A DNA stretch of 64,000 nt from Burkholderia sp. Bp8992 (lineage in GTDB: Bacteria > Pseudomonadota > Gammaproteobacteria > Burkholderiales > Burkholderiaceae): the NCBI RefSeq assembly GCF_003853705.1, contig NZ_QTQI01000005.1, positions 310,001 through 374,000 of the forward strand, given 5' to 3'. Shown here in pieces: positions 16,236 to 33,218 of this stretch. A model generated the notes under the pieces. The model saw nothing but the letters and a program-made list of their open reading frames with translations. It did no database searches and was not told where the DNA came from. The translations under genes were made by a program, and so were the position numbers. Numbering within the stretch: the first letter of the stretch is position 1; each line of letters begins with the position of its first letter.

Positions 16236-17009
16236 GTGAATGATTATTCCGGCCGCGTGGTTGTCGTAACCGGTGCTGGTTCCGGCATGGGGCGAGCAAT
16301 GGTTCGCGAGTTCGTTTCGAGAGGGGCGAACGTAGCCGCACTCGACATCAATCTCAAGAATGCCGTTGCCACTGTCGAAGCGTTGGCGAATCCGTCGATG
16401 GCGTACGCACATCAAGTGGACGTCAGCGACCCGCGTAGCGTCGAGGCCGCTGTCAAGGCGGTGATCGAGCGTTGGGGGCACATCGATCTTCTGTGCAATA
16501 ACGCCGGCATTCTGGATGGACACGCGACGGCTCACGAGGTGAGCGTCGAAGAGTGGGACCGCGTCATCGCCGTTAACCTCACGGGACCGTTCCTGATGTC
16601 CCGAGCGGTCATTCCGCAGATGTTGAAGCAAGGCAAAGGGGCGATCGTGAACACTTCGTCCACCTCGGGCTTCAGTGCTGCGGGCGGCGGGACTGCCTAC
16701 ACGGCGTCCAAACACGGTGTGATCGGTCTGACTCGACAACTCACGTTCGAATACGGCGCGCGTGGCATTCGCGTCAATACGATTTGCCCGGGCGCAACCG
16801 CAACCCCGCTGGCGATGTCGGAGCACACGACGGCGAATTCGCCTGATATGGAGGCGGCCCTTCAGAAATTCCCGGCCCGCCGCTGGTGTCAGCCGGAAGA
16901 AATTGCCAAGCTCGCCGCGTATCTGGGCGGCGACGATGCCGACTTCGTGCATGGCAGCGAGTACGTGATGGACGGCGGCTGGCTTGCTGCTGCCCGGGAT
17001 CCCTTCTGA
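16236..17009 (+). CDS. SDR family NAD(P)-dependent oxidoreductase
   Basis: A 257-residue classical SDR. TGAGSGMG is at 12-19, NNAG at 88-91, the catalytic Ser at 141/142 in NTSSTSG and Tyr155-Lys159 in YTASK; a PG motif follows at CPGATATP. The GTG at 16236 is supported by AAGGAG at 16222-16227. Asp37 after beta-2 suggests NAD. Likely oxidation of an alcohol to a ketone in the cytoplasm. The alpha/beta hydrolase gene follows after 78 bp and a porin after that, making a small uptake-and-processing module behind the LuxR-type regulator. Confidence 0.88.
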   Translation: MNDYSGRVVVVTGAGSGMGRAMVREFVSRGANVAALDINLKNAVATVEALANPSMAYAHQVDVSDPRSVEAAVKAVIERWGHIDLLCNNAGILDGHATAHEVSVEEWDRVIAVNLTGPFLMSRAVIPQMLKQGKGAIVNTSSTSGFSAAGGGTAYTASKHGVIGLTRQLTFEYGARGIRVNTICPGATATPLAMSEHTTANSPDMEAALQKFPARRWCQPEEIAKLAAYLGGDDADFVHGSEYVMDGGWLAAARDPF

Positions 17010-17087
17010 GCGGGCGTTTGGCTACACGCGTGGCGCGGCGCAGGTACCCGCGCCTGCACATGTCGGTGGAACAACAGGAGCTTGTGA

Positions 17088-17972: not shown

Positions 17973-18219
17973 TACGCGCGGACAAGCAGGTGCCGCTTCT
18001 GACGATCTGGCCAGCGTCTGGAGAAGTTCGTCGCCCAGTTCGAACGGGTATGGAGCGCGCTGCATGCTGCCGAGCGATGTCAGTGCGTCGCGGGCGCTGC
18101 GCTCTGCCCGATGAGAGATTGTCGATCTTGAGATGGAAACGGCTGGCATCGACGAAATTCGATGGTTCATTTAATTAGTATTCCGAGTGAAATTAACTTT
18201 GGTGATTTTTGGGGGGGAA

Positions 18220-19344
18220 ATGAACAAGAAGATCATTGCAGTCGCCGCGCTGAGCTTCGTAGCTTACTCGCAAGCAAAGGCTCAAAGTTCCGTAACGCTC
18301 TATGGGATCATCGACACGGGTGTGGGCTATATACACAACAGCGGCGGGCAGAGTTCGCAAGTGAGGATGTTGCCCAGCAATCTTTCGGCTTCCCTGTGGG
18401 GATTGAAGGGAACGGAGGATCTGGGTGGCGGGCTCTCGGCCATCTTTACAGTAGAGAGCGGCTTTGACGGCACGAACGGCGCGCTTGCGACACCGGGCAA
18501 GTTGTTCAGCCGACAAGCGTTCGTGGGCATTTCGAGCCAGTACGGCACCCTGACGCTCGGTCGTCAGTACGATCCGCTGACGGATCTCGAACAGCAGTTG
18601 ACCGCTGATGTCTACAGCGGCTGGTTCGCTACGCCGGGTGACGTCGACAATTACGATTCGAGTGCTCGATTCAACAACGCCGTGAAATGGGTGAGTCCGT
18701 CGTGGGGCGGTGTTTCGGCCGAGGTCATGTATGCGCTCGGTGGCGTCGCCGGATCCACGGGGTCGGGGCAGACGTGGAGCGCAGCAGTTGGCTATCAAAG
18801 CACGTCGTTTAGCGTCGGCGGCGGCGTTCTCCACATCGACAACGGCAACGCAACGTTGGGCAATCGCGGCACCTCCTCGTCCGACTCGCTGTTCAATTCG
18901 CCGGTAAATGCGGCGTATGCGTCAGCCCGGTCGATCAATATCGCCCGGATCGGTGCCAATTACGTTGCGGGCCCGTTCACGGTGGGCGCGGCGTATGGCT
19001 ATGCCCAGTATTCGGCCGATTCGGCATCGACGTTCACGGGGTCGGAGAAGTATCACAACGGTTCTGTCTTTGCCCAGTATCAGGTGACGCCTGCGTTCCT
19101 GCTCATCGCCGGCTACAACTACACGCGCGCACTGGGGGATTCGTCTGCCAAGTACCACCAGGTGAATATCGGGGCCGACTACAGCTTGAGCAAGCGCACC
19201 GACGTCTATGCGCTCGCAGGGTATCAGCATGCAAGCGGGCAGAACGGGCAAGGCGCCGCCGAGGCTTCCATCGGGTCGTACGGAATTGCGGCGGGCAAAG
19301 GTACTCAGGAAGTTGTAGCCGTCGGCCTGCGGCACAAGTTCTGA
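18220..19344 (+). CDS. outer-membrane porin (Gram-negative porin family)
   Basis: A 374-residue OmpC-like porin of the Burkholderia/Neisseria type. The signal peptide covers residues 1-21 (cleavage after AKA, mature protein starting QSSVTLYGIIDTG), and beta-barrel strands with the TEDLGGGLSAIF, LFSRQAFVGISSQYG and LTLGRQYDPL blocks follow; the chain ends RHKF with the C-terminal Phe needed for barrel assembly. The ATG at 18220 is preceded by a long GGGGGGGAA run. It forms a general or substrate-induced diffusion pore, and its place between a catabolic hydrolase and an NCS1 permease suggests uptake of the same compound. Confidence 0.93.
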   Translation: MNKKIIAVAALSFVAYSQAKAQSSVTLYGIIDTGVGYIHNSGGQSSQVRMLPSNLSASLWGLKGTEDLGGGLSAIFTVESGFDGTNGALATPGKLFSRQAFVGISSQYGTLTLGRQYDPLTDLEQQLTADVYSGWFATPGDVDNYDSSARFNNAVKWVSPSWGGVSAEVMYALGGVAGSTGSGQTWSAAVGYQSTSFSVGGGVLHIDNGNATLGNRGTSSSDSLFNSPVNAAYASARSINIARIGANYVAGPFTVGAAYGYAQYSADSASTFTGSEKYHNGSVFAQYQVTPAFLLIAGYNYTRALGDSSAKYHQVNIGADYSLSKRTDVYALAGYQHASGQNGQGAAEASIGSYGIAAGKGTQEVVAVGLRHKF

Positions 19345-19358
19345 AGCAATCTGTATGA

Positions 19359-19408
19359 GGCGCCGCGGACCGATACGAGGGCGATTCCTTCGTGAGTTCC
19401 GTGGCGCC
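19359..19408 (+). terminator. possible stem-loop after the porin
   Basis: GGCGCCGCGG at 19359-19368 pairs with CCGTGGCGCC at 19399-19408 (ten pairs including one G-U), enclosing a 30 nt loop with some internal pairing. A weak pyrimidine tract follows but no proper T run, so it may be a 3'-end stabilising structure rather than an intrinsic terminator. Confidence 0.3.
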
Positions 19409-19450
19409 GCGTTGCTCCTTTCCCTGACATGAAGGTATTCGGATTTCTGT

Positions 19451-20779
19451 ATGCCGGCATCAACTCACTCCGATGACGATTACGCGTCCAGTCCGGTTCC
19501 TGAAGATGCAAGGACCGGTTGGCAGGGCATATTTTTCGCTACGTTAGGTATTGCGACCGCGCTTTTCTTTGCTCAGATTGCGTCGATCATTACCGTGAGG
19601 TTTGGCGTAGCGGCAGCGCTGATCGGACTGGCCTACGGATACTGCGTTTCGACATTCGTCGGTATGCTGCTCGTTCGTCGATCCATCCAGACAGGGTTTG
19701 GCATCAATATCTGGGCCAGAACCGTGCTCGGGTATCGTGGAGCGGGATTGTTCAGCCTGGCTTACGGAGTGGCCTGCCTCACTTACTTCGTCGCAGAAGC
19801 CAGCATCATGGGGGCTTCGTTGCAGGCTCTCTTTCCGGAAGCTCCTCATGCGTTGATATACATCTGCCTTGTCTTCGTCATGTTGCCGCTCGTGTGGTCG
19901 GGCATGAAGGTCCTTGCAAGATTCCAGACGATGAGTCTGGTGCTGTTCGTTGTGTTTGTTGTGTGGGCGATAAGAAACGCGCTTGATGTTCCCGTGGCTG
20001 GAGCTCCGCTCCCGGAGATTCGGCTTGCTGCAGACCCCTTCACCAGCCAGCTTGAAGTATTGGGCATCGTTAACGGCCTCGCCTTCATCATTGGTCTCGT
20101 GACGGCCGACTATGCAAGATTTGTGCGAAAACGAGAACTCCGAGCAGGGACCGTGTTTGTCGGCGCGTTGTTTCCTGCGTTCTGTTATGGGATCACCGGG
20201 ATCTTGGGGATCTGGTTCGCTATCCAGATGCGGGAAAGCAATCCTGGCGTCTATTTCGTTTCGTTGCTGGGTGCGGGGGGAATCATTTTCGCGTGTACGA
20301 CGCAGCTCAGAATCAATCTCGGGAACATCTACTCAGGCACCGTTGCCTTCGTCAACGCACTCGAGCATCTATTTGGCGTTTCCGTCAGCAGAAGAGTCGT
20401 TATCGTTGCTTTCTGCGCGGTTGCGGCCACTGTGCTGATTTCAGATGGTACGCACTTGCTCGCGAGTGCCCTGAACTATATTGGTATGTCCATGGCTTGC
20501 TTCGTCACGTTGCTTCTCGTCGATCAGTTCTGGGTTGGACGATCCCGAGATGTGCCCGATGTCGTGCCTCAAGTGATCAAGAACTGGCGATGGACGGGAT
20601 TGAGCTCATGCCTGATCGCAACCCTATGTGGAGTGTGCATCGGTAACGCATCGCTCTTCCCATCGTTGTACCAGTGGGCGACACCGGTGTCGGTGCTTGT
20701 CCAGGTGATCCTCTTTGTTGGTATCGAATCGTACTGCAATCGACGAAGGGAACTGTCGTCACATGCTGCCTCAAGTTAG
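19451..20779 (+). CDS. NCS1-type permease (cytosine/purine/uracil/allantoin family)
   Basis: A 442-residue inner-membrane transporter with about 12 hydrophobic segments between residues 25 and 430. It begins with a short polar N-terminus, and the first helices read GIFFATLGIATALFFAQIA and AALIGLAYGY, followed by FGINIWARTVLGYRGAGLF, which resembles the substrate-gate region of NCS1 symporters. GLVTADYARFVRK matches the NCS1 'ADYxRF' motif in helix 6. It probably imports a nucleobase-like or hydantoin-type compound with a cation. It starts 107 bp after the porin gene. Codon use is less GC-rich than its neighbours. Confidence 0.82.
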   Translation: MPASTHSDDDYASSPVPEDARTGWQGIFFATLGIATALFFAQIASIITVRFGVAAALIGLAYGYCVSTFVGMLLVRRSIQTGFGINIWARTVLGYRGAGLFSLAYGVACLTYFVAEASIMGASLQALFPEAPHALIYICLVFVMLPLVWSGMKVLARFQTMSLVLFVVFVVWAIRNALDVPVAGAPLPEIRLAADPFTSQLEVLGIVNGLAFIIGLVTADYARFVRKRELRAGTVFVGALFPAFCYGITGILGIWFAIQMRESNPGVYFVSLLGAGGIIFACTTQLRINLGNIYSGTVAFVNALEHLFGVSVSRRVVIVAFCAVAATVLISDGTHLLASALNYIGMSMACFVTLLLVDQFWVGRSRDVPDVVPQVIKNWRWTGLSSCLIATLCGVCIGNASLFPSLYQWATPVSVLVQVILFVGIESYCNRRRELSSHAASS

Positions 20780-20864
20780 AGGGGCCACGTGAGAAACGGA
20801 CCTGTTCTCTGGAGCGCTAGGCTACCTGACGCCAGCAAAGGTCACTTTCGAGGAAGGTTTGAGA

Positions 20865-21125
20865 ATGCGGAAGCGCTTTACGGACGAGCAAATCATCGGC
20901 TTCTTGAGAGAGGCCGAAGCTGGCGAGGCGGTCCAGTATCTGTGCAGGACGTACGGTTTCAGCGATACCTCCTTCTACTCCTGGCGGGCGAAGTTTGGTG
21001 GCAACGACGGCGTTGAATCGCAAAGGTTGAAGTACCTTGAGGGGGAGAATAATCGACTAAGGAAACTATTGGCGGAAGCCTTGGCCAAGCAAGGGGCATC
21101 GGGTATCGCTAGAGACGATGTGTAG
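20865..21125 (+). pseudogene. IS3-family transposase OrfA, isolated remnant
   Basis: 86 codons starting MRKRFTDEQIIGFLREAEAG, with a helix-turn-helix of the IS3-family OrfA type (LCRTYGFSDTSFYSWRAKFG) and a leucine-zipper segment (LKYLEGENNRLRKLLAEALA). The normal OrfA end and the whole of OrfB are missing; after residue about 80 the sequence runs into unrelated DNA. It is therefore a dead fragment of an IS407-like element. The insertion or its later deletion probably separated the NCS1 permease gene from what followed it. Confidence 0.8.
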
Positions 21126-21840
21126 ATCATCCACGTCGCCTGGGTCGTCGTCGTTCCGATGCCGTTGTGATTGGCGTCGAGCGATCCGGCGTTCGACTTG
21201 AACAGATCATGATCTTCACGCTTTGTCGATCGTAACCACCTCTGCGCTTCAATGTCGGGTTGGCGCGCAGACCTCAGTAGTGGACTCAACAGGGAACCGA
21301 GTCATGCGAAAGATATTCCTGCGATCGCTGCATAGCCGTCATTCGATTGACTCAGCAGAGGTCTCTGCTTGTCAGGCGGATTCCGATGCTGGTATACGTA
21401 ACATTGAGTCAGACCGAAACAGCCTGGTTACGTACTACAGCCTCGGACAAGTGGTTGCGCACCTGCGTTTCGACGCGCGGAATGGAGAGCAGAGTCCGGC
21501 CGAGCGTAGCCGAAAATAAAAAACCGGTCCAACGTCAGATCACGGCATGGAAGCGGCCACCGTCAAAGTACGCGGTGGAAACGCCACTGAACGTGCCAAG
21601 TCGGACCCGGTCTCCCGTCTGTACCTTTGACGAAGCTGTCGAAACCATAGCGTGTCAAGCTGATGGTATTGCGAAAGCTTGCAGGTTCAGCGTGCCGCGT
21701 GCCTTCGTATGGTGCCTGGAGCGGGGCGCAAGTCGTTTCGACGGCCTGGTTGATGTCAGAGTCGGTTCGCCCCGCCTCCAACTGAACCGCAATGGACCTC
21801 ACGCATCAGACTTCGCTGCCACGAGGCGGAACTGCAACGG
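21126..21840. other. non-coding or decayed region after the IS remnant
   Basis: 715 bp between the OrfA remnant and the second LuxR-type gene. Open frames of 79-252 codons cross it on both strands, but they overlap one another, lack ribosome-binding sites and resemble no family I know. GC content is lower than in flanking operons. I read it as scrambled sequence left by insertion and deletion. Confidence 0.4.
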
Positions 21841-22539
21841 TCAATCTGCGGTTATCGAGTGCAGAAATGAAGCGACTTGTGACCGCGTATTCAATCCGAG
21901 CTTTGCCAGCACCCTTCCCACGTGCGTTTTGACCGTCACCAGCTCGATCTGGCATTCGTGGCAAATCTCCTTGTTGGAAAGTCCACTCGCAATCAAATTG
22001 GCGATCGCTAGCTCGCGGGCTGTCAATAGATGGTGCTCGGTGAGTTTCCGATTGCGTCGATGGGTTTTTATCGAATCCAATCCGAGCAGGTTGAACTGGA
22101 TATAGCTGTGCATTTCCTGTAGTACGGATTCATTGTCGAGCGTTTTGTCGTGTCTGCCTTTTAGAACATTGAGAAAAGCGATGGCTCGGCTGTCCTGCCA
22201 AAAGACAAAAGCGGCCTCGTCCACGAACTCATACCGCGCCATAAAATGTGCGTATGGGATGTGGCAATCTCTAAATCTATTGTCTGCGATCTTTCTGAGA
22301 GTAACGACCGAAGATCTGTTTGATAAAAGAAAGTCGGGGGAGATCGGATCGAACTCTCTGAAGTCTCGGTAATAGTCGCGAATCATCACGTCGCCGAGGC
22401 CGTGTTCCGTGCACGGTGGAATCTTCTGGGTAGCGTCAATCCAGGTAAAGATTGCGGCAGACGATTCCAGAAGGGTTTGGGAAAACGCAATGGTCCGCTT
22501 GGCGAAGTCCTTGCAATCGTCGTTCAGGTGATATCGCAT
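21841..22539 (-). CDS. LuxR-type transcriptional regulator, paralogue B
   Basis: A 232-residue regulator of the same architecture as that at 15021-15725. The C-terminal HTH covers about 168-222 (TARELAIANLIASGLSNKEI then TVKTHVGRVLAKLGL). The sensor part repeats the same blocks: AIFTWIDATQKIPPCTEHGL, IRDYYRDFREFDPIS, SSVVTL and AAFVFWQDSRA. The start at 22539 gives the same N-terminal length as the paralogue. It is read away from the APC permease and P450 operon, the usual divergent arrangement for a regulator of that operon. Confidence 0.83.
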   Translation of the reverse strand: MRYHLNDDCKDFAKRTIAFSQTLLESSAAIFTWIDATQKIPPCTEHGLGDVMIRDYYRDFREFDPISPDFLLSNRSSVVTLRKIADNRFRDCHIPYAHFMARYEFVDEAAFVFWQDSRAIAFLNVLKGRHDKTLDNESVLQEMHSYIQFNLLGLDSIKTHRRNRKLTEHHLLTARELAIANLIASGLSNKEICHECQIELVTVKTHVGRVLAKLGLNTRSQVASFLHSITAD

Positions 22540-22960
22540 GGTTTATCCAAGTGGAATAGACAAAAGATCCTTTCCGAACCTGTCTGACGGAGGCTGGAAC
22601 GCTGGCGGCCTACGCGAAAAGGCTGCTAGCACGATGTTCAGCGATAGGAAGCAAGAACCGAACCAAGAAGACTGACAGGTCACACGCTCCCGTATACGGC
22701 GACGGTGGCGATGAATCTGACAGAGTGCCCGGGTGCCGTAGAGGTAGACGCACGATCTGGAAGCGCGTCGTTGCACGTTGCTCGTGCATGGCGCACCACG
22801 TGCGATCGGCGCTCCATCTTGAAGCAACGTATAGATACTTTCGGAGGATGCTGGCCAGAAATTCGCTGAATATAGTTCGGCTACCAAGTCAACGGGTTCT
22901 GCGGTACGCGCATCAAAGTGCGATACCGAGAGAACCGCGCACAGCAAAGAGGTGGCTCGA
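22540..22960. other. divergent regulatory region between LuxR-type gene and APC permease
   Basis: 421 bp separating two divergent genes. A 134-codon minus-strand frame lies inside but has no domain, is Cys/Ser/Arg-rich in the manner of a shadow frame and lacks a ribosome-binding site. The area most likely holds the promoters and regulator-binding sites for both directions. I could not fix a specific palindrome. Confidence 0.4.
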
Positions 22961-24460
22961 ATGAAGACAAGCGGTTACAGGGCGATTGCAGAGAAGGGAA
23001 ATAAACTTACCGGGAACATGGGCGCCTTTGGTCTTGCGCTGAGCGTTTTGGCTTTCTCGGCCCCTCTCACGACCGTATCGGGATATGTGCCGGTCGCGTT
23101 GATGTATGGCGGTGCAGCCAGCCCCACCATCTTCATCGCGACGATGGTTCTGCTGATGCTGTTCTCGCTAGGGTATCTGACACTCAACCATGCTGCGAAG
23201 CGACCGGGCGACTTCTACGCATTCATCACGCATGGCTTGGGCAAGAGTGCCGGGCTTGGAGCCGGATTGCTCGCCACGATTACGTACTTCATCATCCTGG
23301 CCGGCGTTCCGGCGTATTTTGGCGTTGCGTCCGCTGATCTGCAGCGGACGCTTACGGGATGGGCATTTCCCTGGTACTACTTTACGCTCGCATGTTGGCT
23401 TGCCATCGCGATTTTCGGATATCTGCACATCGAAGTATCCGCGAAATTCCTGACTTGGGTAATGGTCGCCGAAGTCATCGTTTGCATCGCGTTCTGCACT
23501 GGAGTTATTGGCAGCAATCCCCCAAGCGTCTTGCCGCCGAACGCCATTTTTTCCCCATCCGGATTGTTCAACGCGAACAGCCCGTTTGCCATGCTGTTTG
23601 CCGTCTCTTTCTTTATGGGGTTCGAGGCGACAGCATTGTTCCGTGATGAGGTGCGCGACCCGGATAGAACCATTCCGCGAGCAACTTATGGTGCAGTTAT
23701 CTTCATCGGTCTGTTGTATACGTTCTGCGCATATGCACTGATTCGCGTGTATGGACACGACGTAATCTCCGTCGCAACGCAATCGCCCGCCACCATGTTT
23801 CAGAATGCCTTCGACAAATTCGTCAGTGCGCGGATGCGCACGCCGGTTGCGATCCTGGTTTTGACCTCGGCGTTTGCATCCAGCTTGTCCATTCATAACG
23901 TGCTGACGCGTTATCTTCACAACCTCGGCATCGACGGTGCATTTCCGCAGTACCTGAGTGCGATCCATCCGAAGCATTTGTCACCGCACCGCTCGTCCAT
24001 CACGGTTTCGACGCTGACGCTGCTTGTTCTTCTGCCGTTCATCGTGACCGGGGCCCAACCGGAATTGCTTTACGGTCGACTGTCTGGCGTCGGTACCGCA
24101 GGAGGACTGATCCTTATGACCGTCGTGAATGTTTCATGTCTCGTCTGGTATTTCCGTGAGGGACGGTTCATCGGTGCAGGCGTTTTCAAGGCCTGCGTTG
24201 CGCCCGGCATCTCCGCAGTCCTGTTCGTTGCGCTCGTCGTCCTCGTTGGCAAGCACTTCGAGCTTCTCGTCGGCGGCGAAGCAGGCCAAAGCACGTGGAT
24301 GCTCTACAGCCTGTGCGCAGTGCAGATTTTCGGGATGGCATTGGCCGTTTATTTCAGGAAGGCCAAGCCGGAAGTGTTCCGGCGGTTGGGGCGCAATCCT
24401 GACGTCGAGCCGCGAGATGGTGGCACGGACGACGAGGCCGTTCTCGCCGCAACCCAATGA
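22961..24460 (+). CDS. APC superfamily amino-acid permease
   Basis: A 499-residue inner-membrane permease with about 12 transmembrane helices. The first helix contains GNMGAFGLALSVLAFSAPLTTVSGYVP-type sequence, where the glycine-rich unwound region of APC transporters is expected; FMGFEATALFRDEVRDPDRTIPRA is the conserved APC 'GFE...EvkdP.rtiPrA' loop after helix 6. The ATG at 22961 is chosen since AAAGAGGTGG lies just upstream; a GTG at 22952 is possible. It likely imports an amino acid or amine. It is followed 104 bp later by the reductase/flavodoxin/P450 genes and may supply or clear their substrate. Confidence 0.87.
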   Translation: MKTSGYRAIAEKGNKLTGNMGAFGLALSVLAFSAPLTTVSGYVPVALMYGGAASPTIFIATMVLLMLFSLGYLTLNHAAKRPGDFYAFITHGLGKSAGLGAGLLATITYFIILAGVPAYFGVASADLQRTLTGWAFPWYYFTLACWLAIAIFGYLHIEVSAKFLTWVMVAEVIVCIAFCTGVIGSNPPSVLPPNAIFSPSGLFNANSPFAMLFAVSFFMGFEATALFRDEVRDPDRTIPRATYGAVIFIGLLYTFCAYALIRVYGHDVISVATQSPATMFQNAFDKFVSARMRTPVAILVLTSAFASSLSIHNVLTRYLHNLGIDGAFPQYLSAIHPKHLSPHRSSITVSTLTLLVLLPFIVTGAQPELLYGRLSGVGTAGGLILMTVVNVSCLVWYFREGRFIGAGVFKACVAPGISAVLFVALVVLVGKHFELLVGGEAGQSTWMLYSLCAVQIFGMALAVYFRKAKPEVFRRLGRNPDVEPRDGGTDDEAVLAATQ

Positions 24461-24564
24461 CATATCCATGCTTCGGATGTGAATCTCGATAGCTTCGGCT
24501 TCAGTCGCGAAGCAACTCGGCATCCGATTCATCTCTGTTTCAAGAGACCAGTCCAGGTACGTTC

Positions 24565-25818
24565 ATGCGCATCATTAATCCATCCATTGCCGTTGTGGGA
24601 AGCGGACCGTCCGGGTGCTACCTGACTCAGTCGTTGATAAAGGTTTGGCCGGATTCTGCAGTGTCGGTGTTTGAATCGGAGCCGGTGCCATTCGGTCTGT
24701 TGCGTTACGGCATCGCGGCCGATCATCAGGGTTCGAAATCCGTGGCGATGCAGTTCGATCGTCTGTTTAGACGCGATGGGGTCAATTTTTTCGGGAATGT
24801 AACTATCGGAAAAGACCTGTCGTTTGAGCGATTGACAGAGAGTTTCGACATTGTGGCGCTCGCGACTGGTTTGGCAACGGATTCGGTTCTTCCGGTTCCA
24901 CAACACCCGAAAGCAAACGTCGTTGGGGCAGGCGAAATACTTAGGGCGCTGAACGGCTATCCCGAGCCTCGGTTGCCCCATAACAGAGGGCGATTTTGCT
25001 CCTTGGGTGAATCGTTGGCGATTGTCGGGCACGGGAACGTCGCCATAGACGTTGCCCGGTTGCTGGCCAAACGCATCGAGCAATTCGATAACTCCGATAT
25101 CGACGACGAGCGGCTATCTATGCTTCGCTCGAATCATCTCGAGCGGATTCATCTCGTCGGAAGATCCAGCGCAGGCGACGCGAAATTTGACCTTGCCATG
25201 CTGCGTGAACTCTGTGATCTGGGACATGTAAAGGTATCTGCATCGGGTCTTTCGGACGACGATCAGAGCGAAAAGGCACAAGTGCTGCGGAATGCCGCGA
25301 GGCGCATCGTATATGCCAAACCGCTGGTGGAAATTGTTTTCCACTTCGAATGTACGCCGGTGCAGGTCGACGCACTGCTGACGAAAAGCGTTTTGCGCGG
25401 ACACTCGAAAGCGGAAGGTATCGTGAGTTTTCACGTCGACACGATCGTTACTGCGATTGGTTTTACGAACGAGGTCGGCGATATCGGCGCGCGATGCGGG
25501 CCGTGGCGTGCGTTGAACGTATTCGAGGTCGGTTGGGCGAAGAACGGCGGAAAGGGCGGGGTTGCCGCGAATCGCAGAGACGCACAAGCCGTGGCCGCGC
25601 AAATCGTTGCGATGGTGCAAGACGGAGCGCTGCCGATCGGCCGGCCTGGACTGGCCGCGCTCGGAGACCAGTTTCCAGCCGATTTCGTGAATTACGCCGG
25701 CTGGCTGGAGGTGGACCGGTATGAACGGGATGCGGCGGGGCCGAACAGGCTCCGCAAGAAAATTGCAGATCGCAGGCGCCTGCTGGAAGTGGCAAGGCAG
25801 GTCGTGAGCATGGGGTAA
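24565..25818 (+). CDS. adrenodoxin/ferredoxin-NADP reductase-like flavoprotein
   Basis: A 417-residue FAD- and NADPH-binding protein of the adrenodoxin reductase/FprA type. The FAD Rossmann motif VVGSGPSGCYL spans 10-20, PFGLLRYGIAADHQGSK matches the family's conserved 'PyGLvRyGVAPDHp..K' block, and the second dinucleotide motif is VGHGNVAIDVARLLA near 154-168. VGWAKNGGKGGVAANRRDA near the end corresponds to the 'GW.krGP.GvI.tn..da' segment. It would pass electrons from NADPH to a small carrier. The flavodoxin gene follows after 24 bp and the P450 after another 10 bp, so the three form one electron-transfer chain. Confidence 0.9.
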   Translation: MRIINPSIAVVGSGPSGCYLTQSLIKVWPDSAVSVFESEPVPFGLLRYGIAADHQGSKSVAMQFDRLFRRDGVNFFGNVTIGKDLSFERLTESFDIVALATGLATDSVLPVPQHPKANVVGAGEILRALNGYPEPRLPHNRGRFCSLGESLAIVGHGNVAIDVARLLAKRIEQFDNSDIDDERLSMLRSNHLERIHLVGRSSAGDAKFDLAMLRELCDLGHVKVSASGLSDDDQSEKAQVLRNAARRIVYAKPLVEIVFHFECTPVQVDALLTKSVLRGHSKAEGIVSFHVDTIVTAIGFTNEVGDIGARCGPWRALNVFEVGWAKNGGKGGVAANRRDAQAVAAQIVAMVQDGALPIGRPGLAALGDQFPADFVNYAGWLEVDRYERDAAGPNRLRKKIADRRRLLEVARQVVSMG

Positions 25819-25842
25819 TCGTCTAAATATGAGCAAAAAGAA

Positions 25843-26298
25843 ATGAATGCATCAATTCTGATTCTGTTTGGCACGGAGAGCGGTAACGCAGAGATGGTTG
25901 CCGATGATATTGCGATGTGCTTCGCCGAGAAAGATATACCGAGCGTCGTCAAATCGATGGCGGATCAAGCAGTGGACGAACTGGAGGCTGTCAGTTTCGC
26001 GATCGTTGTTACTTCTACGTACGGCGAGGGCGATATGCCGGAGACGACCGAGCCGTTCTATCGCGCGCTCGTCGCGAAGCGTCCGGATCTGGCTTCGATG
26101 AGATTTGCCGCGTTTGGGCTCGGGGATTCCAGCTACGAGAATTACAACCGTGCAATCGATCTATTGACTGAGATGCTCGCTTCGTGCGGTGCCACGCAAA
26201 TTGGCGAAACGGGACGACACAATGCATCGAAAGGCATGCCTGCAAACCAGGTGGCGGTGGCATGGTCCCAAGGCATCCTTTCGATTTTGGGAAAATAA
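25843..26298 (+). CDS. flavodoxin
   Basis: A 151-residue FMN flavodoxin. The phosphate-binding loop FGTESGNAEMVA is at residues 9-20, TSTYGEGDMPETTEPFY covers the 50s-loop FMN contact, and FAAFGLGDSSYENY the 90s loop. These are long-chain/diflavin-reductase-like flavodoxin sequences rather than a 2Fe-2S ferredoxin. Its start lies 24 bp after the reductase stop and its stop 10 bp before the P450 start. It is the predicted electron carrier between the reductase and the P450. Confidence 0.92.
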   Translation: MNASILILFGTESGNAEMVADDIAMCFAEKDIPSVVKSMADQAVDELEAVSFAIVVTSTYGEGDMPETTEPFYRALVAKRPDLASMRFAAFGLGDSSYENYNRAIDLLTEMLASCGATQIGETGRHNASKGMPANQVAVAWSQGILSILGK

Positions 26299-26308
26299 GG
26301 TGGTTTCG

Positions 26309-27505
26309 ATGAAAAATCAAACGGGCGATTTCATGAACGATCCTTACCTTCCGTGGGCGGACCTCGCGTTTCGCGACAACCCGTATCCGTGGTATGAGCG
26401 ATTGCAACGCGAGGCACCGGTGTATCGGATTAGCGAACGTGAGTTCGTCGTCTCGAAGTATTCCGACTATGTGGAGTTTGCCAAGCATTCGGCGATGAGC
26501 ATGGAGGAGCCGAACTGGGTGAAACCCCATCCGTGGCACGTGTTCAAGGAAAGTGTGCTGTTCTACGACCCGCCACGGCAGACGCTATTGCGGCGGCACT
26601 TCAACAAGTGGTTCACGCCGAAGATGGTCGCGGAGTGGGCGAAGCATACAAAGGCGCTTGTGAGCGACGCGCTGGACAATATCGCGCAAGATGGCATTGT
26701 CGAGGCCCATCACACTATTTGTGTCGTACCCACTCACGTCACGATGTGCCGCATCTTCGACATACCGGAAGATGACATCGAAGGTGTGATAGAGAACGGG
26801 TTGCGTATTGTCATGGCTCAGTCTCCGGCTTCAACGAAGGCGCAGCTGGACGATGCGGTAGAGGGCTTCAAGTATCTGTTCGACCGGTGCAACGCGTTTG
26901 TTGCCGAGAAGCGCCGAAATCCTGGAAACGGTCTTGCGGACGCACTAATCGAGGCACAAGCGCGAGGCGAACTATCCGAGGCTGAAGTCGTCCAGGCCAT
27001 GGTCAATTTTTTCTTCTCCGGTGCACCTAATCCGGCTTACGTGCTCGCGTCGACGTTGGAGCATTTCACGCGCGAGCCTGAACTCTTCGACCTCTACAAA
27101 GCCGATCGCGAAAGCCGCCAGGCGATGATCAACGAATTCTTGCGTCTGTATCCGCCAGAGATGTCCTTCACTCGGTACAACAAAGCCGCGGTTACGATCA
27201 GAGGCACGGTGATCCCGGAAAATAGCGTCATTCGCTTCATGACTGCGGCAGTCAATCGGGATCCTGATGTGTTCGAGGATCCGAACACATTCGACCATAC
27301 TCGTTCGATGCGTGAAAGCCAGATGCTGTCGTTCGGCATCGGAACACACAGCTGCGCGGGGCAATTGATCAGCCGCGTCGAGATCGAGGTGATCTTGTCA
27401 GCCATAGCGGAACGCTATTCACGCGTGGAACTCGCCGGCTCTCCCGCGGTTCAGCACGACGATCGCATTCGCAACTATTTGACTTTGCCGTTGCGCTTTT
27501 CCTGA
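26309..27505 (+). CDS. cytochrome P450 with atypical I-helix
   Basis: A 398-residue soluble bacterial P450. The heme-binding loop FGIGTHSCAG has the thiolate Cys349, and the K-helix ExxR pair is Glu276/Arg279 (EFLR). The I-helix, normally (A/G)Gx(D/E)T, reads SGAPNP at 237-242: the conserved Thr is replaced by Asn241 and the preceding acid by Pro240. In P450cin (CYP176A) Asn242 takes the place of this Thr, and that enzyme is served by a flavodoxin (cindoxin), as this one seems to be. The ATG at 26309 is chosen because TAAGGTGG precedes it and NPYPWYERL falls at its usual N-terminal place. It would hydroxylate or demethylate an unknown small molecule. It is the third gene in a reductase-flavodoxin-P450 operon. 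Confidence 0.93.
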   Translation: MKNQTGDFMNDPYLPWADLAFRDNPYPWYERLQREAPVYRISEREFVVSKYSDYVEFAKHSAMSMEEPNWVKPHPWHVFKESVLFYDPPRQTLLRRHFNKWFTPKMVAEWAKHTKALVSDALDNIAQDGIVEAHHTICVVPTHVTMCRIFDIPEDDIEGVIENGLRIVMAQSPASTKAQLDDAVEGFKYLFDRCNAFVAEKRRNPGNGLADALIEAQARGELSEAEVVQAMVNFFFSGAPNPAYVLASTLEHFTREPELFDLYKADRESRQAMINEFLRLYPPEMSFTRYNKAAVTIRGTVIPENSVIRFMTAAVNRDPDVFEDPNTFDHTRSMRESQMLSFGIGTHSCAGQLISRVEIEVILSAIAERYSRVELAGSPAVQHDDRIRNYLTLPLRFS

Positions 27506-27704
27506 AGCGACCAAGGGCGCGAATCGGGGGATGCTCGCTGATCGGGTGTATTCCGGATTGGCGCTCGAGGAGCGTCTCGCGAGCAACAACTGCTCGGGGC
27601 GCTCCCTTCATTCCGCTATCGGCGACCAGCCCGGTGTCGTCATGCGCACGCTGTCGACCGTATCGTCCGTTGCTTCCATCATTCCTCATCCGCGCTCCGA
27701 TAGC

Positions 27705-28985
27705 ATGCCTTCCAATAGCTGCTCGTCCGGGAAGTTTCCCATCGATGTCCCAACCTCGCGACATCAATGGTTCGCCGTATTTGCCGTCGCGGTCAGCGCA
27801 TTTGCGTTCGTCACTTGCGAATTTCTACCGGTCGGCCTTCTGGCGCACATCGCTCTGGATCTGCATGTCACGTCCGGGACGGCGGGCCTGATGATGACCT
27901 TGCCCGGTGTGATGGCTGCCTTGGCCGCGCCGACCTCGGTGGTTGTTGCTGGAAAATGGGATCGCAGGTACATACTTTTGATATTAACCGGATTGCTGAC
28001 GTGCTCAAGCTTCGTCAGTGCGTACTCGACGAACTTCACGACGATGCTTGCCGGCAGGGCACTGTTGGGGATCGCATTGGGAGCGTTCTGGACGCTCGCG
28101 ACCGCGGCGGCGGGGCGCATGGTGCAAGCCCGGGATACTGCGCGTGCGATCGCATGCATCCTGGGAGGGGTTGCATCGGCTACTGTCATTGGTGTGCCGC
28201 TCGGGACACTGATCGCTACGCTCGCATCCTGGCGGGAATCGTTCATTGCGACCGGTGTCCTCGCAACGGTAGCGCTTTTTGCGCAGGTCGCCTTCGTGCC
28301 GAAGCTGACAGCTGAAACCACCGTGGGCATTCAGGACTTCATTTCGCTGCTGCGTCGGCCGCACGTACGTCTGAGCCTGATGATGGTGGGGTTCGTATTC
28401 GGCGCGCATTTTTCCACCTATACGTACCTGGAACCTCGTCTCGGAGAGGAATTTTCGGTATCGGAGATTTCAAGCCTGCTGATGCTGTTTGGTATTGTCG
28501 GCTTCGTGTCGAACGTGACGCTTTCGGCGGTGATGGATGGCCACGTGAAAGTCGCCACCGCGATCGCGACGGCTCTGCTGTTCTTCGCATTGTTGCTGAT
28601 GGTGGTACTGGATCACGCGCGAATCGGCGAGGCGGCAGCATTATCGCTCTGGGGCGTAGCGTTCGGTGCAATCCCGTTGTGCTTCAGCATCTGGACTCAG
28701 CACGATGCCGCTGACTGCCCCGAAGTCGGTTCGGCGCTCTTCATTTGCGTTGTTCAAGTCGCCATCGCGATCGGGTCCGCCGTGGGAGGGCTGATCGTCG
28801 ATCATATGGGCATACGAGCAGATTTCTCTATCGGGTGTATTTCCTCCGTGCTCGGGTTGGTGACCCTATGCACACTGAAGGCCCCATCGTGCGGGCAGCA
28901 GGCGTTTTCGCCTGCTACGGGTAGAACCGTAGTCGGCCAACACCCTGGCTCGTCACGCCGAAATCGCCCGCCAGTCTCTGAATAA
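27705..28985 (+). CDS. MFS transporter, DHA1-type exporter
   Basis: A major facilitator protein of about 426 residues with 12 predicted helices. The N-terminal WFAVFAVAVSAFAFVTCEFLP segment and GRALLGIALGAFWTLATAAA (motif C-like in helix 5) are typical of DHA1 exporters related to PurR-regulated/arabinose efflux proteins; AGKWDRRYILL is the motif A loop. The open frame reaches back to 27531, with another ATG at 27642; 27705 is chosen by family length, and no candidate has a convincing ribosome-binding site. It lies downstream of the P450 gene on the same strand and could export a product or toxic substrate. Confidence 0.82.
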   Translation: MPSNSCSSGKFPIDVPTSRHQWFAVFAVAVSAFAFVTCEFLPVGLLAHIALDLHVTSGTAGLMMTLPGVMAALAAPTSVVVAGKWDRRYILLILTGLLTCSSFVSAYSTNFTTMLAGRALLGIALGAFWTLATAAAGRMVQARDTARAIACILGGVASATVIGVPLGTLIATLASWRESFIATGVLATVALFAQVAFVPKLTAETTVGIQDFISLLRRPHVRLSLMMVGFVFGAHFSTYTYLEPRLGEEFSVSEISSLLMLFGIVGFVSNVTLSAVMDGHVKVATAIATALLFFALLLMVVLDHARIGEAAALSLWGVAFGAIPLCFSIWTQHDAADCPEVGSALFICVVQVAIAIGSAVGGLIVDHMGIRADFSIGCISSVLGLVTLCTLKAPSCGQQAFSPATGRTVVGQHPGSSRRNRPPVSE

Positions 28986-29399
28986 TCGCCATCCAATCCA
29001 ACGATTCGCCTAACCATTTCCCCCTTCAGATCGCGGTCTGGAGTTGATGGGATCGTGCGACATGGTGTCCCCATCGCAACCGGACATGACGTACTTGCCG
29101 CGATCGGGGAATACGAACTCGCCGCCATCTTGACCGTTATGAAAGTCATTGAGTCACGAACACGTGCAGCGTTGAAAGACCATCACGGTTTGAAGCGAAG
29201 CCTCGCTTCTCGGCCTTCGCCCCCCGGATGCTGATCGCTGACCCTTTGCAACTTCATTGACGTGCCACGTAGCGACCGCCGCAGCATGTGGAGTAGCTGC
29301 AGCTTCGACGTCGGCGTGCGTCTTCATGCTGCAGCGCACTCACGCGTAAACACGGAGTTTTGCGTCTTGCAAAGCCATGTAGAGTGTGCGCAAAGAATA
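28986..29399. other. intergenic region upstream of the second porin
   Basis: About 410 bp after the MFS gene with no supportable gene. Small frames on the minus strand (to 29149 and 29339) are low-complexity or shadow-like. The right-hand part becomes A/T-rich and leads into the twin operator-like sites at 29400-29445 that precede the porin. Confidence 0.4.
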
Positions 29400-29445
29400 T
29401 AAATATGCACAAAAAATCATCTTAGGCATTTCTTGTGCATATTGG
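29400..29445. promoter_or_regulatory. twin GntR-operator-like sites upstream of the porin
   Basis: Two copies of a 16-mer lie in opposite orientation: 29400-29415 (reverse complement TTTTTGTGCATATTTA) and 29430-29445 (TTCTTGTGCATATTGG). Their centres are 30 bp apart, about three helical turns, and 14 bases of the pair form a near-perfect inverted repeat. The same motif occurs at 36198 and 36891 and, more weakly, at 31398. The likely binder is the FadR-type regulator at 30673-31368. The porin ATG is at 29474. Confidence 0.6.
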
Positions 29446-29473
29446 CGACTACGTAAACGGTATGGAGGAGACG

Positions 29474-30592
29474 ATGGTGAAAAGGTGGGTCATTACGTCA
29501 ATTGCCTGCGCGATAGCGGGTCTGGGCCCGGTATCGTGTGCCTATGGGCAAAGCAGCGTGACGCTCTGGGGCTTGCTCGATGCTGGTGTGTCATACATCA
29601 GCAATACGTCGGGCCACCCTGCATGGCGGCTCGACGACGGCATCGCGTTGCCCAACCTGCTGGGATTTCGCGGGACCGAGGATCTCGGTGGCGGCACCCG
29701 CGCGGTGTTCCAGCTGGTAACGCAGTTCACGCTGCAGGGTAATCTGGTTGCTCAGAAGAGCAACGGGAGCGGTACCGGAACCGGGCTTTTCGCGCGCAAT
29801 GCATGGGTCGGCCTCGATAACACTCGCTTCGGCAAGCTCACGCTCGGACGCCAGTACGACTTCATGGTCGACACGCTGTTCGCCGATGTCGGGGCCGATA
29901 TGGCGATGTATGGCGGCGGATTCTACGGCTTCCGGGATGGCCCGTTTGCGAAGCTCGGCATTCCCGATTCTCCGCCGAACGAGGCGTTCGACTTCGACCG
30001 CATGAACGGCGACACGCCTCTTGGCAACGCGGTCAAGTACACGAGTCCGTTGCTGGGAGGATTCCGGTTCGGCGGAATGTACGCATTCGGTGGCGTGGCC
30101 GGGGATTTCCGCCAAAACAGCGCGGAAAGCTTCGGTGCCAGCTACAGTGCTGGCGCGTTTGCGTTCGGCGCGGCCTATACCGACGTGCGTTATGCGTCAT
30201 TGCTCGGCGACAGCATCAGGAACTACGGGCTCGGCGCGAAATATCGCGGCGACAAGTTGCTGCTGACGGCGCTGTTCACTGACACGCGCAACACGCACAA
30301 CGGCGCGGTTGTCAACGCGGCGGAGGTCGGCGCACTGTATCAGTTCACGCCGGCATTCTCGGCGAGCGTCGCCTACACCTACATGTGGGGGAACGAGGTT
30401 GTCGACCGCAATCACGCCCATCAGTGGGGGGCCGTTGCGAAGTACCATCTGTCGAAGCGGACGGCCGTCTATCTGCAATCGGGGTATCAGCTGACGAACG
30501 GGGGGGCGAATGCGTCGATCAACGGGACGTTCGGCCCGTCGAGCAGTCGCTCGCAGTTCATCGGCCGGATCGGCATGCAAACGATGTTCTGA
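29474..30592 (+). CDS. outer-membrane porin (Gram-negative porin family)
   Basis: A 372-residue OmpC-like porin. Residues 1-25 form a signal peptide (cleavage after AYG, mature QSSVTLWGLLDAG). The barrel blocks GTEDLGGGTRAVFQL, LFARNAWVGLDNTRFG and LTLGRQYDFMVD match the family, and it ends MQTMF with a terminal Phe. The ATG at 29474 is chosen over 29462 because GGAGG at 29465-29469 lies five bases in front. It differs considerably from the porin at 18220. The operator-like sites in its promoter link it to the 30-39 kb catabolic cluster, so it probably admits that cluster's substrate. Confidence 0.92.
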   Translation: MVKRWVITSIACAIAGLGPVSCAYGQSSVTLWGLLDAGVSYISNTSGHPAWRLDDGIALPNLLGFRGTEDLGGGTRAVFQLVTQFTLQGNLVAQKSNGSGTGTGLFARNAWVGLDNTRFGKLTLGRQYDFMVDTLFADVGADMAMYGGGFYGFRDGPFAKLGIPDSPPNEAFDFDRMNGDTPLGNAVKYTSPLLGGFRFGGMYAFGGVAGDFRQNSAESFGASYSAGAFAFGAAYTDVRYASLLGDSIRNYGLGAKYRGDKLLLTALFTDTRNTHNGAVVNAAEVGALYQFTPAFSASVAYTYMWGNEVVDRNHAHQWGAVAKYHLSKRTAVYLQSGYQLTNGGANASINGTFGPSSSRSQFIGRIGMQTMF

Positions 30593-30672
30593 TTGATCCG
30601 TGCGACGGCGGCGGGAGTCGTCGTCGCAATGGGGTGCATTCGCAGACGCAGTATCGGGGCACTGCGCGCGAC

Positions 30673-31368
30673 TTACTGCACAGAGGCCAATTGCTGTTCC
30701 AGTGCGGCGGCAACACGAGTCAACGTTCCTTCGATATGCTTGCGCAGCAATTTCGCTGCCTTGTCCTTTTCCCGTCCGATCGCCGCTTTCATCAGCGCCT
30801 CGTGTTCCGCTCCCTTGTGGCGTTCCTCCGTCCGATGGAGCGCCGAGTAGCGCCGATAGCGTTCGGCGCGGTCGAACAGCGATCCGACCATGTTCAGCAG
30901 CAGCGGGCTCGGCGTCGCGGACAGCAACGCCATATGGTAGGCGCGATGGCGCTCCGACCAGTCGTCGTCGAGGGCCACCGGGCCGGTCCCCATCCGCTTT
31001 TCGGCGAGGCTCAGCCGATGGAACGCCGTCAGCACGGCAACTTCCCAGTCGTCGTCGCCATGCTCGATGGAATCCATCAGCGCTTCGTGTTCAAGCAGGA
31101 TGCGCAGGCGCGTGATGTCCTTGAAGTCGTCGATACTGATCGGTGCGACCCAGAAGCCGCGATTCTCGGTCGCCTGCACGATTCCGTCCTGCGCGAGGCG
31201 GTTCAGTGCTTCGCGAATCGGTGAACTGCTGAGACCGTAGGTCTTCGACAGACTCTCGACTTTCAGGCGCGTGCCTGGCTCCAGTTCACACCGGATGATC
31301 GAGGTTTTCATCCGCGCGAAGGCAACATCGATGAGCGGGGCACCATTGGAGGCAGGTGTCGAATCCAT
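30673..31368 (-). CDS. GntR family regulator, FadR/FCD subfamily
   Basis: A 231-residue regulator. The winged HTH occupies about 20-80 (LEPGTRLKVESLSKTYGLSS then PIREALNRLAQDGIV), and the all-helical FCD effector domain about 90-220, with the metal-binding His/Asp pattern suggested by DDDWEVAVLTAFHRLS and EERHKGAEHEALMKAA. Members usually repress catabolic genes until an organic acid binds. It converges with the porin gene and is followed upstream by the monooxygenase operon. A motif-like sequence at 31398 in its own promoter suggests autoregulation. Confidence 0.9.
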   Translation of the reverse strand: MDSTPASNGAPLIDVAFARMKTSIIRCELEPGTRLKVESLSKTYGLSSSPIREALNRLAQDGIVQATENRGFWVAPISIDDFKDITRLRILLEHEALMDSIEHGDDDWEVAVLTAFHRLSLAEKRMGTGPVALDDDWSERHRAYHMALLSATPSPLLLNMVGSLFDRAERYRRYSALHRTEERHKGAEHEALMKAAIGREKDKAAKLLRKHIEGTLTRVAAALEQQLASVQ

Positions 31369-31397
31369 GGCGTGGCATTCCGGATTGTCAATGCGGT

Positions 31398-31413
31398 AAT
31401 TTTATGCGCAAAG
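31398..31413. promoter_or_regulatory. weak operator-like site upstream of the GntR gene
   Basis: AATTTTATGCGCAAAG at 31398-31413 matches the local motif TTTTTRTGCATAWWWR in its left half and centre but only partly in its right half. It lies 30 bp upstream of the regulator's start codon, where an autorepression site would be expected. Confidence 0.35.
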
Positions 31414-31453
31414 CTCACTTCTATGCAAGATTGAGTCGCAAGGCTCGTCGGAC

Positions 31454-31485
31454 AAAAAAAGCGCTCGGGCGAAGCACCGAGCGCT
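31454..31485 (-). terminator. Rho-independent terminator of the monooxygenase operon
   Basis: AGCGCTCGG (31460-31468) and CCGAGCGCT (31477-31485) form a perfect nine-pair stem with an eight-base loop. On the minus strand the stem is followed by seven T residues (the A run at 31454-31460). It begins nine bases after the stop codon of the MhpA-like gene and so ends the four-gene minus-strand operon. Confidence 0.85.
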
Positions 31486-31493
31486 GAGGGCTG

Positions 31494-33128
31494 TTACATG
31501 ATGCGGGTTCCGGACCAAAGGCTCGTTGCCGGCGCGTCAAGTGCTTGCGAGCCGTTGGTCGCCAGCGCGCCCACGAGCTCGTCGAGCAGCGCAAGCGCCG
31601 CATGCGGCTCACGGCAACCACCGTACACATAGTGATCGGGGCGGGCGAGAACCACACGGCAATCGTGTTGCGCCATCCAGCCGGTCAGCACGCCACTGAC
31701 GTCCTGATACGTATCCGGCGAGGCATCGGGCGCGAGCGCGTCGGGCCCGATCGAGACGAACCGGATCGCCGGGTACTGCAGGCGATCGCATGCCAGCCGA
31801 AGTTGCGCGACGGTCGCGGCATCAGTACGTGCGTCCACCGCGAGCCGGAAGGTCGCGCCGGTCACGTCGTCGAGCAGGCGCTCGTCGCCGGTGAATGTCC
31901 GCACGCGTGGTTGCGGAAACAGCAGCCCGCGTGGCCCGTCGCTCGAAGCGGACAGAAAGCCGTCGCTCAACCCCGGGATCAACGATTGCCGGACCATTCC
32001 CTGCGGATTGGCGGCCATCTCCGCATGCAAGCGCTCGTCGCGCGCGCTGGCCGCGACCGGATCGCGTTCACAGATCAGCTTGCCCAGTCCCTTCGTCACG
32101 AGTGTCGTGCGCTTGACGTGCGGCAACCGTTCAGCCTGGTAACTGTCGAGCAGTGCCGTACCGGCCTTGCCACGCGTAACCATCGCGAGCTTCCACACGA
32201 GATTGGACGCATCCCGGATGCCTTGACACATTCCCTGCGCGAGGAACGGCGGTGTCATGTGCGCTGCGTCACCGAGGAAGAAGATCCGCCCGGCTCGCCA
32301 GCGGCGCAGCACGAGCGCGTGAAACCGGTAGGCGGATGCACGCCATATCTCGTATTCGTCGTCGGCGAGCCAGCGCGAAATCAGTTTTTTCACGAACTCG
32401 GGCCGGCAGGCCTCGGCAGGCGTCTCGTCCGCGTTGATCATGAACTCCCAGCGGCGGCAGCGGCCGGGGCCGACGACGAACGTCGACGGGCGCGCGATCT
32501 CGCAATACTGCACGTTGGTTGCCGGCAGGCGCTCGCCGGCGCCGTCCTTGAGCATCACGTCGACGACGAGCCACGGCTCGTCGAAGTCCAGATCCTCCAT
32601 GTTCAGGCCGAGCCGCGTACGGATCGGGCTCGTTCCTCCATCGCAGGCCAGCACATGGCCCGCGGTGAACGTGCGTTGCTCGCCCGACGCCAGCGAGATC
32701 GTCACGGATGCGGCATCGTCGTGCGATTCGACCGCGGTCGCTTCCGCACCGAGCTCGACTCTGACCGACGGGTAGCCGGCGAGATTGTCGCGCAGGATCC
32801 CTTCGATTTGCGGCTGCATGAACACGTAGTTCGGTGCCCAGCCGAGCTGGTATGGCGGGGCTGCCGCGTCGATGCGGCGAATCACCCGCGTGTCGGTCGT
32901 CCGGTATTCGGACGGGCGGTACGGCATCACGTATTGCGCGATCCTGTCTGCGATCCCGAGGTTGGCCAGGATCCGCATGATTTCCTGGTCGAATCCCATT
33001 GCCCGCGGCTTGTCGTAGACAGTAGGCGACTTGTCGACGACCAGCGTGCGCAGGCCGGCCTGACCGGCCAGGTTGGCGGCGACTGCACCGACCGGGCCGA
33101 GACCGACAATGATCAAATCGAAGTCCAC
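31494..33128 (-). CDS. FAD-dependent aromatic monooxygenase (MhpA/PheA-like)
   Basis: A 544-residue class A flavoprotein hydroxylase. The FAD fingerprint IIVGLGPVGAVAANLAGQAG is at the N-terminus, the DG motif is CDGGTSPIRTRLGL and the GD motif FFLGDAAHMTPPFLAQGMCQG with QGIRDASNLVWKL after it. A thioredoxin-like C-terminal domain is present, as in MhpA-type phenol hydroxylases. The start is a GTG at 33128 behind ATGGAGGAGAT; the longer frame upstream lacks support. It would hydroxylate a phenolic acid ortho or para to the existing OH using NAD(P)H and O2. Last gene of an operon with FAH, VOC and ALDH genes, followed by a terminator. Confidence 0.9.
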   Translation of the reverse strand: MDFDLIIVGLGPVGAVAANLAGQAGLRTLVVDKSPTVYDKPRAMGFDQEIMRILANLGIADRIAQYVMPYRPSEYRTTDTRVIRRIDAAAPPYQLGWAPNYVFMQPQIEGILRDNLAGYPSVRVELGAEATAVESHDDAASVTISLASGEQRTFTAGHVLACDGGTSPIRTRLGLNMEDLDFDEPWLVVDVMLKDGAGERLPATNVQYCEIARPSTFVVGPGRCRRWEFMINADETPAEACRPEFVKKLISRWLADDEYEIWRASAYRFHALVLRRWRAGRIFFLGDAAHMTPPFLAQGMCQGIRDASNLVWKLAMVTRGKAGTALLDSYQAERLPHVKRTTLVTKGLGKLICERDPVAASARDERLHAEMAANPQGMVRQSLIPGLSDGFLSASSDGPRGLLFPQPRVRTFTGDERLLDDVTGATFRLAVDARTDAATVAQLRLACDRLQYPAIRFVSIGPDALAPDASPDTYQDVSGVLTGWMAQHDCRVVLARPDHYVYGGCREPHAALALLDELVGALATNGSQALDAPATSLWSGTRIM

Positions 33129-33218
33129 ATCTCCTCCATGTTCATATTCGTTCCGCCAGAGCCGACTACGTTCGCCCGGCGGTGCGGGCGGGTCCACCGG
33201 ACCGTCGCCCGACTGATC

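Follow-up and report, generated by a model that had tools for sequence, protein, structure and literature searches.

The window analysed here is a 64,000-nucleotide stretch of contig NZ_QTQI01000005.1 from Burkholderia sp. Bp8992, in which three consecutive genes encode a reductase, a flavodoxin and a cytochrome P450. Judged by its relatives, this system is a member of the XplA clade, in the form of an unfused XplA/XplB-type module and not XplA itself. Open reading frames, Pfam and phmmer agree on the complete operon, with gaps of 24 and 10 bp, that a first-pass annotation had described, and Pfam matches bear out the amino-acid-type (APC) permease, the major facilitator superfamily (MFS) transporter and the divergent LuxR-type regulator that it had placed on the flanks. 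The features are as follows (FAD, flavin adenine dinucleotide; FMN, flavin mononucleotide; SRS-5, substrate recognition site 5).

21515-29324, no strand: accessory cassette between two homology breaks, the left one seen against genome G024 and the right one against genome G016
21841-22539, minus: LuxR-type (GerE) regulator, divergent from the permease (Pfam GerE, 7e-14)
22952-24460, plus: APC-superfamily permease, proposed importer (Pfam AA_permease_2, 1e-29)
24565-25818, plus: XplB/adrenodoxin-reductase-like FAD flavoprotein, 417 aa (phmmer: adrenodoxin reductase 1e-36, FprA 6e-36)
25843-26298, plus: FMN flavodoxin, 151 aa, electron carrier, 24 bp after the reductase (Pfam Flavodoxin_1, 3e-27)
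26309-27505, plus: XplA-like cytochrome P450, 398 aa, ATG start (Pfam p450, 4e-28)
27017-27034, plus: I-helix motif SGAPNP, P450 residues 237-242 (Pro240 in place of the acid, Asn241 in place of the alcohol)
27158-27160, plus: codon of Glu284, in SRS-5 (Glu in 39/40 clade P450s and 0/66 outgroup P450s)
27353-27355, plus: codon of the heme-ligand Cys349
27531-28985, plus: MFS transporter, DHA1-type by best matches, proposed exporter (Pfam MFS_1, 6e-35)

Kinship of the P450

Among the best 60 of 308 Protein Data Bank (PDB) matches of the P450, XplA is the nearest solved relative (2e-114), and an AlphaFold model of the protein (mean predicted local distance difference test score 91.1) fits the heme domain of XplA to 1.5 Å across 390 residues. 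As in the Rhodococcus and Gordonia strains that degrade the explosive hexahydro-1,3,5-trinitro-1,3,5-triazine (RDX), which XplA breaks down, the reductase adjoins the flavodoxin and the P450 in the same order; identities are 44-45% for the P450, 35% for the reductase and, for the flavodoxin, 52% when compared over 139 aa with the corresponding domain of Gordonia XplA. XplA, which we take to be CYP177A1, differs in having its flavodoxin fused to the P450 N terminus, whereas in the window the flavodoxin has a 151-aa gene to itself, which ends in its own stop codon 10 bp before the P450 start; nor did we find an APC permease within 8 kb of the Gordonia XplA copy.

The first-pass annotation had instead named P450cin (CYP176A1) of Citrobacter, with its flavodoxin cindoxin, as the nearest case, a placing that both the sequence matches and the acid position speak against. 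CYP176 is not named among the same 60 PDB matches, in a comparison that did not align the P450cin sequence itself, and P450cin is absent from the 50 structure-comparison entries listed for the model. There are real likenesses: a passage of PMC9405906 describes separate flavodoxin and reductase genes in the P450cin operon, another in PMC8398027 describes Asn replacing Thr, as in the window P450, and cindoxin (4oxx) is the best solved relative of the window flavodoxin (3e-26). A terpenoid hydroxylase operating like P450cin with cindoxin is nonetheless very improbable, the P450 being far nearer to XplA. P450cin keeps the acid that is Pro240 here, as the title of a D241N study cited in PMC9366932 indicates, and its Asn242 is described in part of PMC8398027 as steering the substrate and not as a functional Thr replacement; P450cin oxidises cineole, and an APC permease and Glu284 would be ill-suited to a neutral monoterpene.

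Relatives were collected in several searches. A tblastn search of plasmids with the P450 gave 164 records at 1e-25, with at least 36% identity in 11 of the 40 listed; across 84,980 species genomes, a scan whose best 80 matches were kept gave at least 11 loci at that identity or above; and family searches, seed genomes included, were positive in 12/401, 2/398, 1/246, 3/245, 4/297, 1/149 and 1/76 genomes, counts that are lower bounds, some of these searches having scored just 4 to 7 first-look candidates per genome. The clade set holds 40 distinct P450s, the window's among them, and 35 clade loci, three of which (L133-L135) come from one genome; the outgroup holds 69 P450 loci, 66 of which gave a P450 frame for motif counts and 10 of which entered the tree. 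L001, L019, L090-L115 (short or repeat fetches) and L116 were left out, as were L143-L166 (flank matches) and plasmid matches H2 and H5-H8 (further XplA, Klebsiella and Enterobacter copies).

In a tree computed without the six motif columns, a 100/100 branch separates the 40 clade P450s from the 10 outgroup rows, and an inner 100/100 clade of 32 rows unites XplA with nine Asp-type and 22 Asn-type P450s. The window P450 sits in the 22-row Asn-type group (80/81), on its own 13-row branch (93/90); the Asn-type group also holds Klebsiella plasmid, Sinorhizobium, Sphingobium and Poseidonocella members and three actinobacterial ones. Two related modules, on a Klebsiella grimontii plasmid (L004) and on the G692 chromosome (L127), which looks like that of an Enterobacteriaceae member, keep reductase, flavodoxin, P450, MFS transporter and APC permease together and unfused, like the window; they differ in their P450s, which are 42% identical to the window's and have the I helix SGSPNP, and the regulator annotated on the Klebsiella plasmid is TetR, not LuxR. 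Matches to both the P450 and the flavodoxin also occur on additional Klebsiella and Enterobacter plasmids (sequence matches only), and complete Escherichia coli genomes gave no megablast match to the Klebsiella module. Two of 26 pattern-matched stretches of viral contigs encode P450s, both distant (26-28% identity). Searches of a collection of open papers listed none whose title names this operon or unfused homologues of XplA; what we say of XplA chemistry comes from a review.

Several genomes carry two or more clade P450s fairly close together (L124, L129, L133/L134, L002 and L011). The pairs are of Asp-type and SAAHNP-type in three, and of TPNA-type and SGxHNP-type in Sinorhizobium and Poseidonocella.

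Active-site residues

A MAFFT alignment of the 40 clade and 66 outgroup P450s lays S-G-A-P-N-P on A-G-x-E-T-T in a gap-free block, which upholds the register first proposed for Pro240 and Asn241 and, with these two residues on the E-T columns, the loss of both acid and alcohol. The I helix of the AlphaFold model is broken at residue 239 (H224-238, H240-255). In the outgroup the acid position is Glu or Asp in 63/66 P450s and the alcohol position Thr or Ser in 58/66; the pair is missing in 40/40 clade members, XplA included, so that its loss is not peculiar to the window enzyme. Clade members have Pro (15), His (7), Met (10) or Leu (8) at the acid position and Asn (22), Asp (17) or, in XplA, Ala (1) at the alcohol position, a column that needs two changes on the tree. 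Residue 237 is Ser (20) or Thr (2) in all 22 Asn rows and Val or Leu in the other 18; this co-variation of 237 and 241 is one tree branch, not many independent events.

A second signature lies outside the I helix. Five residues past the arginine of the ExxR motif, which starts at Glu276, Glu284 is shared by all clade members except XplA. XplA has Gln there, residue 438 by an offset of 154 taken from the structural superposition, and Met-Ala (the Ala being residue 395) where the window P450 has Pro-Asn. Only at position 284 and at position 47 (Val to Leu, a mild change) does XplA depart from a residue shared by 35 or more of the 39 remaining members.

These residues bear on whether the window enzyme might, like XplA, be a reductase, the lost pair allowing it to pass electrons to a compound with a nitro, N-nitroso or N-oxide group despite the presence of air. 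XplA is the closest characterised relative, and part of a review (PMC8081977) reports that it lacks the acid-alcohol pair and links that loss, as apparently essential, to aerobic reductive denitration. We consider such a reductase unlikely all the same: the pair is gone throughout the clade, XplA alone departs from the Asn or Asp and the Glu that the 39 others have at 241 and 284, and one-carbon (C1) and lactamase-like neighbours of some relatives (below) fit oxidation beside nitrogen. The earlier statement that proton delivery must differ from the standard scheme is best kept as plausible; the 'must' is unproven, an XplA-type reductive reaction being the other possibility.

By comparison of sequences, the lost pair of XplA is common to kin not known to meet RDX, and is for that reason not XplA-specific, while Ala395 and Gln438 are special to XplA within this set; the comparison suggests that the pair was lost before RDX was encountered, and that the clade normally acts on small nitrogen-containing compounds, with XplA the odd one out. 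The value of the system lies in its clade, which orders the oddities of XplA, names two active-site positions that set it apart from 39 relatives, gives testable residues, and supplies unfused natural redox partners for experiments.

Separately, residue 91 of the window P450 (26579-26581) is Gln, as in Burkholderia sp. MS389, and His in all 38 other clade members and 66/66 outgroup P450s; in P450s generally this C-helix His contacts a heme propionate.

Gene set, neighbours and proposed chemistry

A comparison of genomes for the same three genes, as the first-pass annotation had suggested, shows the gene set to be conserved. Within 8 kb of the P450, a reductase occurs at 22/35 clade loci, a flavodoxin at 23/35 and an APC permease at 26/35, each against 0/69 outgroup P450 loci of like length. 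The window reductase is 35-48% identical to those of related modules other than that of MS389. Seven of the 23 flavodoxins are fused to the P450 and 16 are separate, the fusions being Gordonia XplA, those of R. erythropolis R138, Arthrobacter S41 with one family member, and Mycobacterium AT1 with two; in six genomes of the Mycobacterium AT1 family the gene order is reductase, flavodoxin, permease, P450. A single fusion event for all seven, a set chosen after the first tree had been viewed, is rejected by the P450 part (approximately unbiased test, p-AU 1.7e-7) and by the reductase (p 5e-4), and not by the short flavodoxin tree (p 0.10). On the P450 and reductase trees, the fusion is thus seen to have arisen at least twice. 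Nitratireductor and Paracoccus plasmids (L139, L140) carry FAD oxidoreductase-flavodoxin pairs with no P450 in their gene tables within 6 kb, adjoining aspartate dehydrogenase, a thiamine-diphosphate-binding protein and aldehyde dehydrogenase; there the flavodoxin perhaps serves another enzyme.

Neighbouring genes give an indication of substrate. A glutamine-synthetase-like gene lies at 12/35 clade loci against 2/69 in the outgroup, in three lineages (five Streptomyces, six of the Mycobacterium AT1 family and the Gordonia XplA plasmid); C1 genes (aminomethyltransferase, formyltetrahydrofolate deformylase, FolD or formaldehyde genes) lie at 8/35 against 1/69; and hydantoinase A/B genes lie at 3/35 against 0/69, in genomes that also have a second clade P450, the A subunit at L129 having caprolactamase alpha as its best model (529.6 bits, below the cut-off of 1000). 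A succinate-semialdehyde dehydrogenase is annotated beside the R138 fusion. Taken with the active-site glutamate and the amino-acid-type permease, these neighbours suggest that the substrates are small amines or cyclic nitrogen compounds, oxidised beside nitrogen. A carboxylate in SRS-5 would suit a cationic substrate; XplA, with its Gln, has a neutral known substrate in RDX, a saturated six-membered nitrogen ring.

On Gordonia pGKT2, the glutamine-synthetase domain shares one open frame with the XplB-like reductase (L003:8846-11431), of which the incomplete gene table lists the reductase part alone. Plasmid pB of Sinorhizobium chiapasense (L136, L002) has a long catabolic cluster with two clade P450s, an FAD-dependent oxidoreductase beside a flavodoxin, a second FAD oxidoreductase, a Rid hydrolase, APC permeases, a MOSC protein and S-(hydroxymethyl)glutathione dehydrogenase.

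The explanation that we favour, with modest confidence, is an unfused XplA/XplB-type P450 system that oxidises a small amine or cyclic nitrogen compound with a shifted oxygen-activation set, the shift being proposed because no clade member has the acid-alcohol pair. It builds on the genes, the register, the kinship, the conserved signatures and the conserved gene set. From these we infer the electron flow, the substrate class, the reaction and the role of Glu284: the permease would import the compound; electrons would pass from NAD(P)H through the FAD reductase and the FMN flavodoxin to the heme; and the P450 would hydroxylate or dealkylate the substrate next to its nitrogen, with Glu284 as substrate anchor, acid or both, and Asn241 with Ser237, one helical turn apart, as a polar relay. 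The product would then be used, or expelled by the MFS pump.

Expulsion is central to another possibility, a detoxification cassette in which the P450 alters a toxic natural product, the MFS pump expels it and the APC protein is an exchanger. A regulator and an MFS gene, a patchy distribution (1/61 relatives) and the absence of any further catabolic gene found in the window cassette or beside the Klebsiella grimontii plasmid module fit this picture. Keeping an amino-acid-type permease at 26/35 loci would be odd for detoxification, however, and the MFS proteins encoded in the Klebsiella and G692 modules share just 26% and 30% identity with the window's (354 and 247 aa); we regard this role as improbable. 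The permeases of those two modules are 59% and 58% identical to that of the window over 468 aa.

Several points weigh against the oxidation of small nitrogen compounds that we favour. XplA, the best-studied close relative, acts reductively, and the placing of Glu284 towards the heme presumes a P450cam numbering that we take to be ExxR Arg + 5 = Val295. Queries for the gene-set and neighbour-gene searches were taken from the clade's own loci, a bias in its favour, and the neighbour-gene stretches were of unequal length (means 17.5 kb for the clade, 16.1 kb for the outgroup). The loci are not independent, six Streptomyces near-copies making up 6/8 C1 loci and 5/12 glutamine-synthetase loci, and aldehyde dehydrogenases are mildly enriched (11/35 against 4/69), a weak sign. 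Flavodoxin pairing also has exceptions: in the Streptomyces branch a ferredoxin adjoins the P450 in its place at 5/6 loci (L017, a short contig, has none), the alpha-proteobacterial Sphingobium member has no adjacent flavodoxin, and that of S. chiapasense lies ~9 kb from the nearer P450. Lastly, the substrate class proposed for the window enzyme would be borrowed from its relatives, because the window cassette itself contains no lactamase, glutamine-synthetase or C1 gene.

A bolder reading, which we offer tentatively and which taken jointly is rather doubtful, is that the clade shifted its catalytic acid out of the I helix and onto Glu284 in SRS-5, that the Asn branch placed a hydroxyl one turn upstream (Ser237 with Asn241), that the substrates are small amines, and that XplA would be derived by losing the polar residue at 241 and Glu284, losses by which an enzyme that oxygenated amines would have become one that acts on RDX reductively.

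Cassette borders and remaining features

The last position homologous to one Burkholderia genome is 21514, and homology with a second starts at 29325, in keeping with the self-contained unit first described, and the G+C content of 22952-28985 is 56.8%, against 62.4% for 1-19000 plus 30001-64000, with 15000-22000 likewise low (55-61%); on the strength of the breaks and the lower G+C, the module has the look of an accessory cassette. The P450 was found at 1e-40 in 1/61 relatives searched (37 of its own genus), namely MS389, the nearest genome among those compared, whose genome carries this cassette too (99% identity for the P450 and for the permease, 96% for the MFS protein).

Two Streptomyces P450 ferredoxins used as queries matched nothing in 18001-34000 of the window at E up to 1e-5, a search to which a distant ferredoxin elsewhere in the genome would be invisible. 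The Streptomyces P450s here that are most similar to SscaCYP of Streptomyces scabiei (8q5j, CYP107B1 in the PDB) have the I-helix VGHLD and, unlike the window, an adjacent ferredoxin gene at 5/6 loci. An anti-phage role was rejected, the reductase, flavodoxin and P450 having no PADLOC match. Promoter-like sites in 22400-29000 (4, against 3.4, sd 2.2, in shuffles) and terminator-like sites (3, against 7.0, sd 2.9) give no signal.

As to the individual proteins, the reductase scores 24.9 bits with Pyr_redox_2, just below the Pfam gathering score of 26.1; the MFS protein has 13 NCBIfam matches, every one under its own cut-off; and no solved relative of the permease was found at 0.001. The N-terminal part of the LuxR-type regulator has no Pfam match, and the protein weakly matches two CARF models (5e-5 and 5e-4). 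Beside the cassette, 20862-21122 holds an HTH_Tnp_1 transposase fragment, presumably an IS3-type OrfA, with multi-copy relatives in other Burkholderia. On the other side, minus-strand genes for a FAD_binding_3 monooxygenase (31494-33197) and an aldehyde dehydrogenase (33219-34652), with a GntR regulator and a porin, adjoin the cassette and seem to form a separate catabolic unit.

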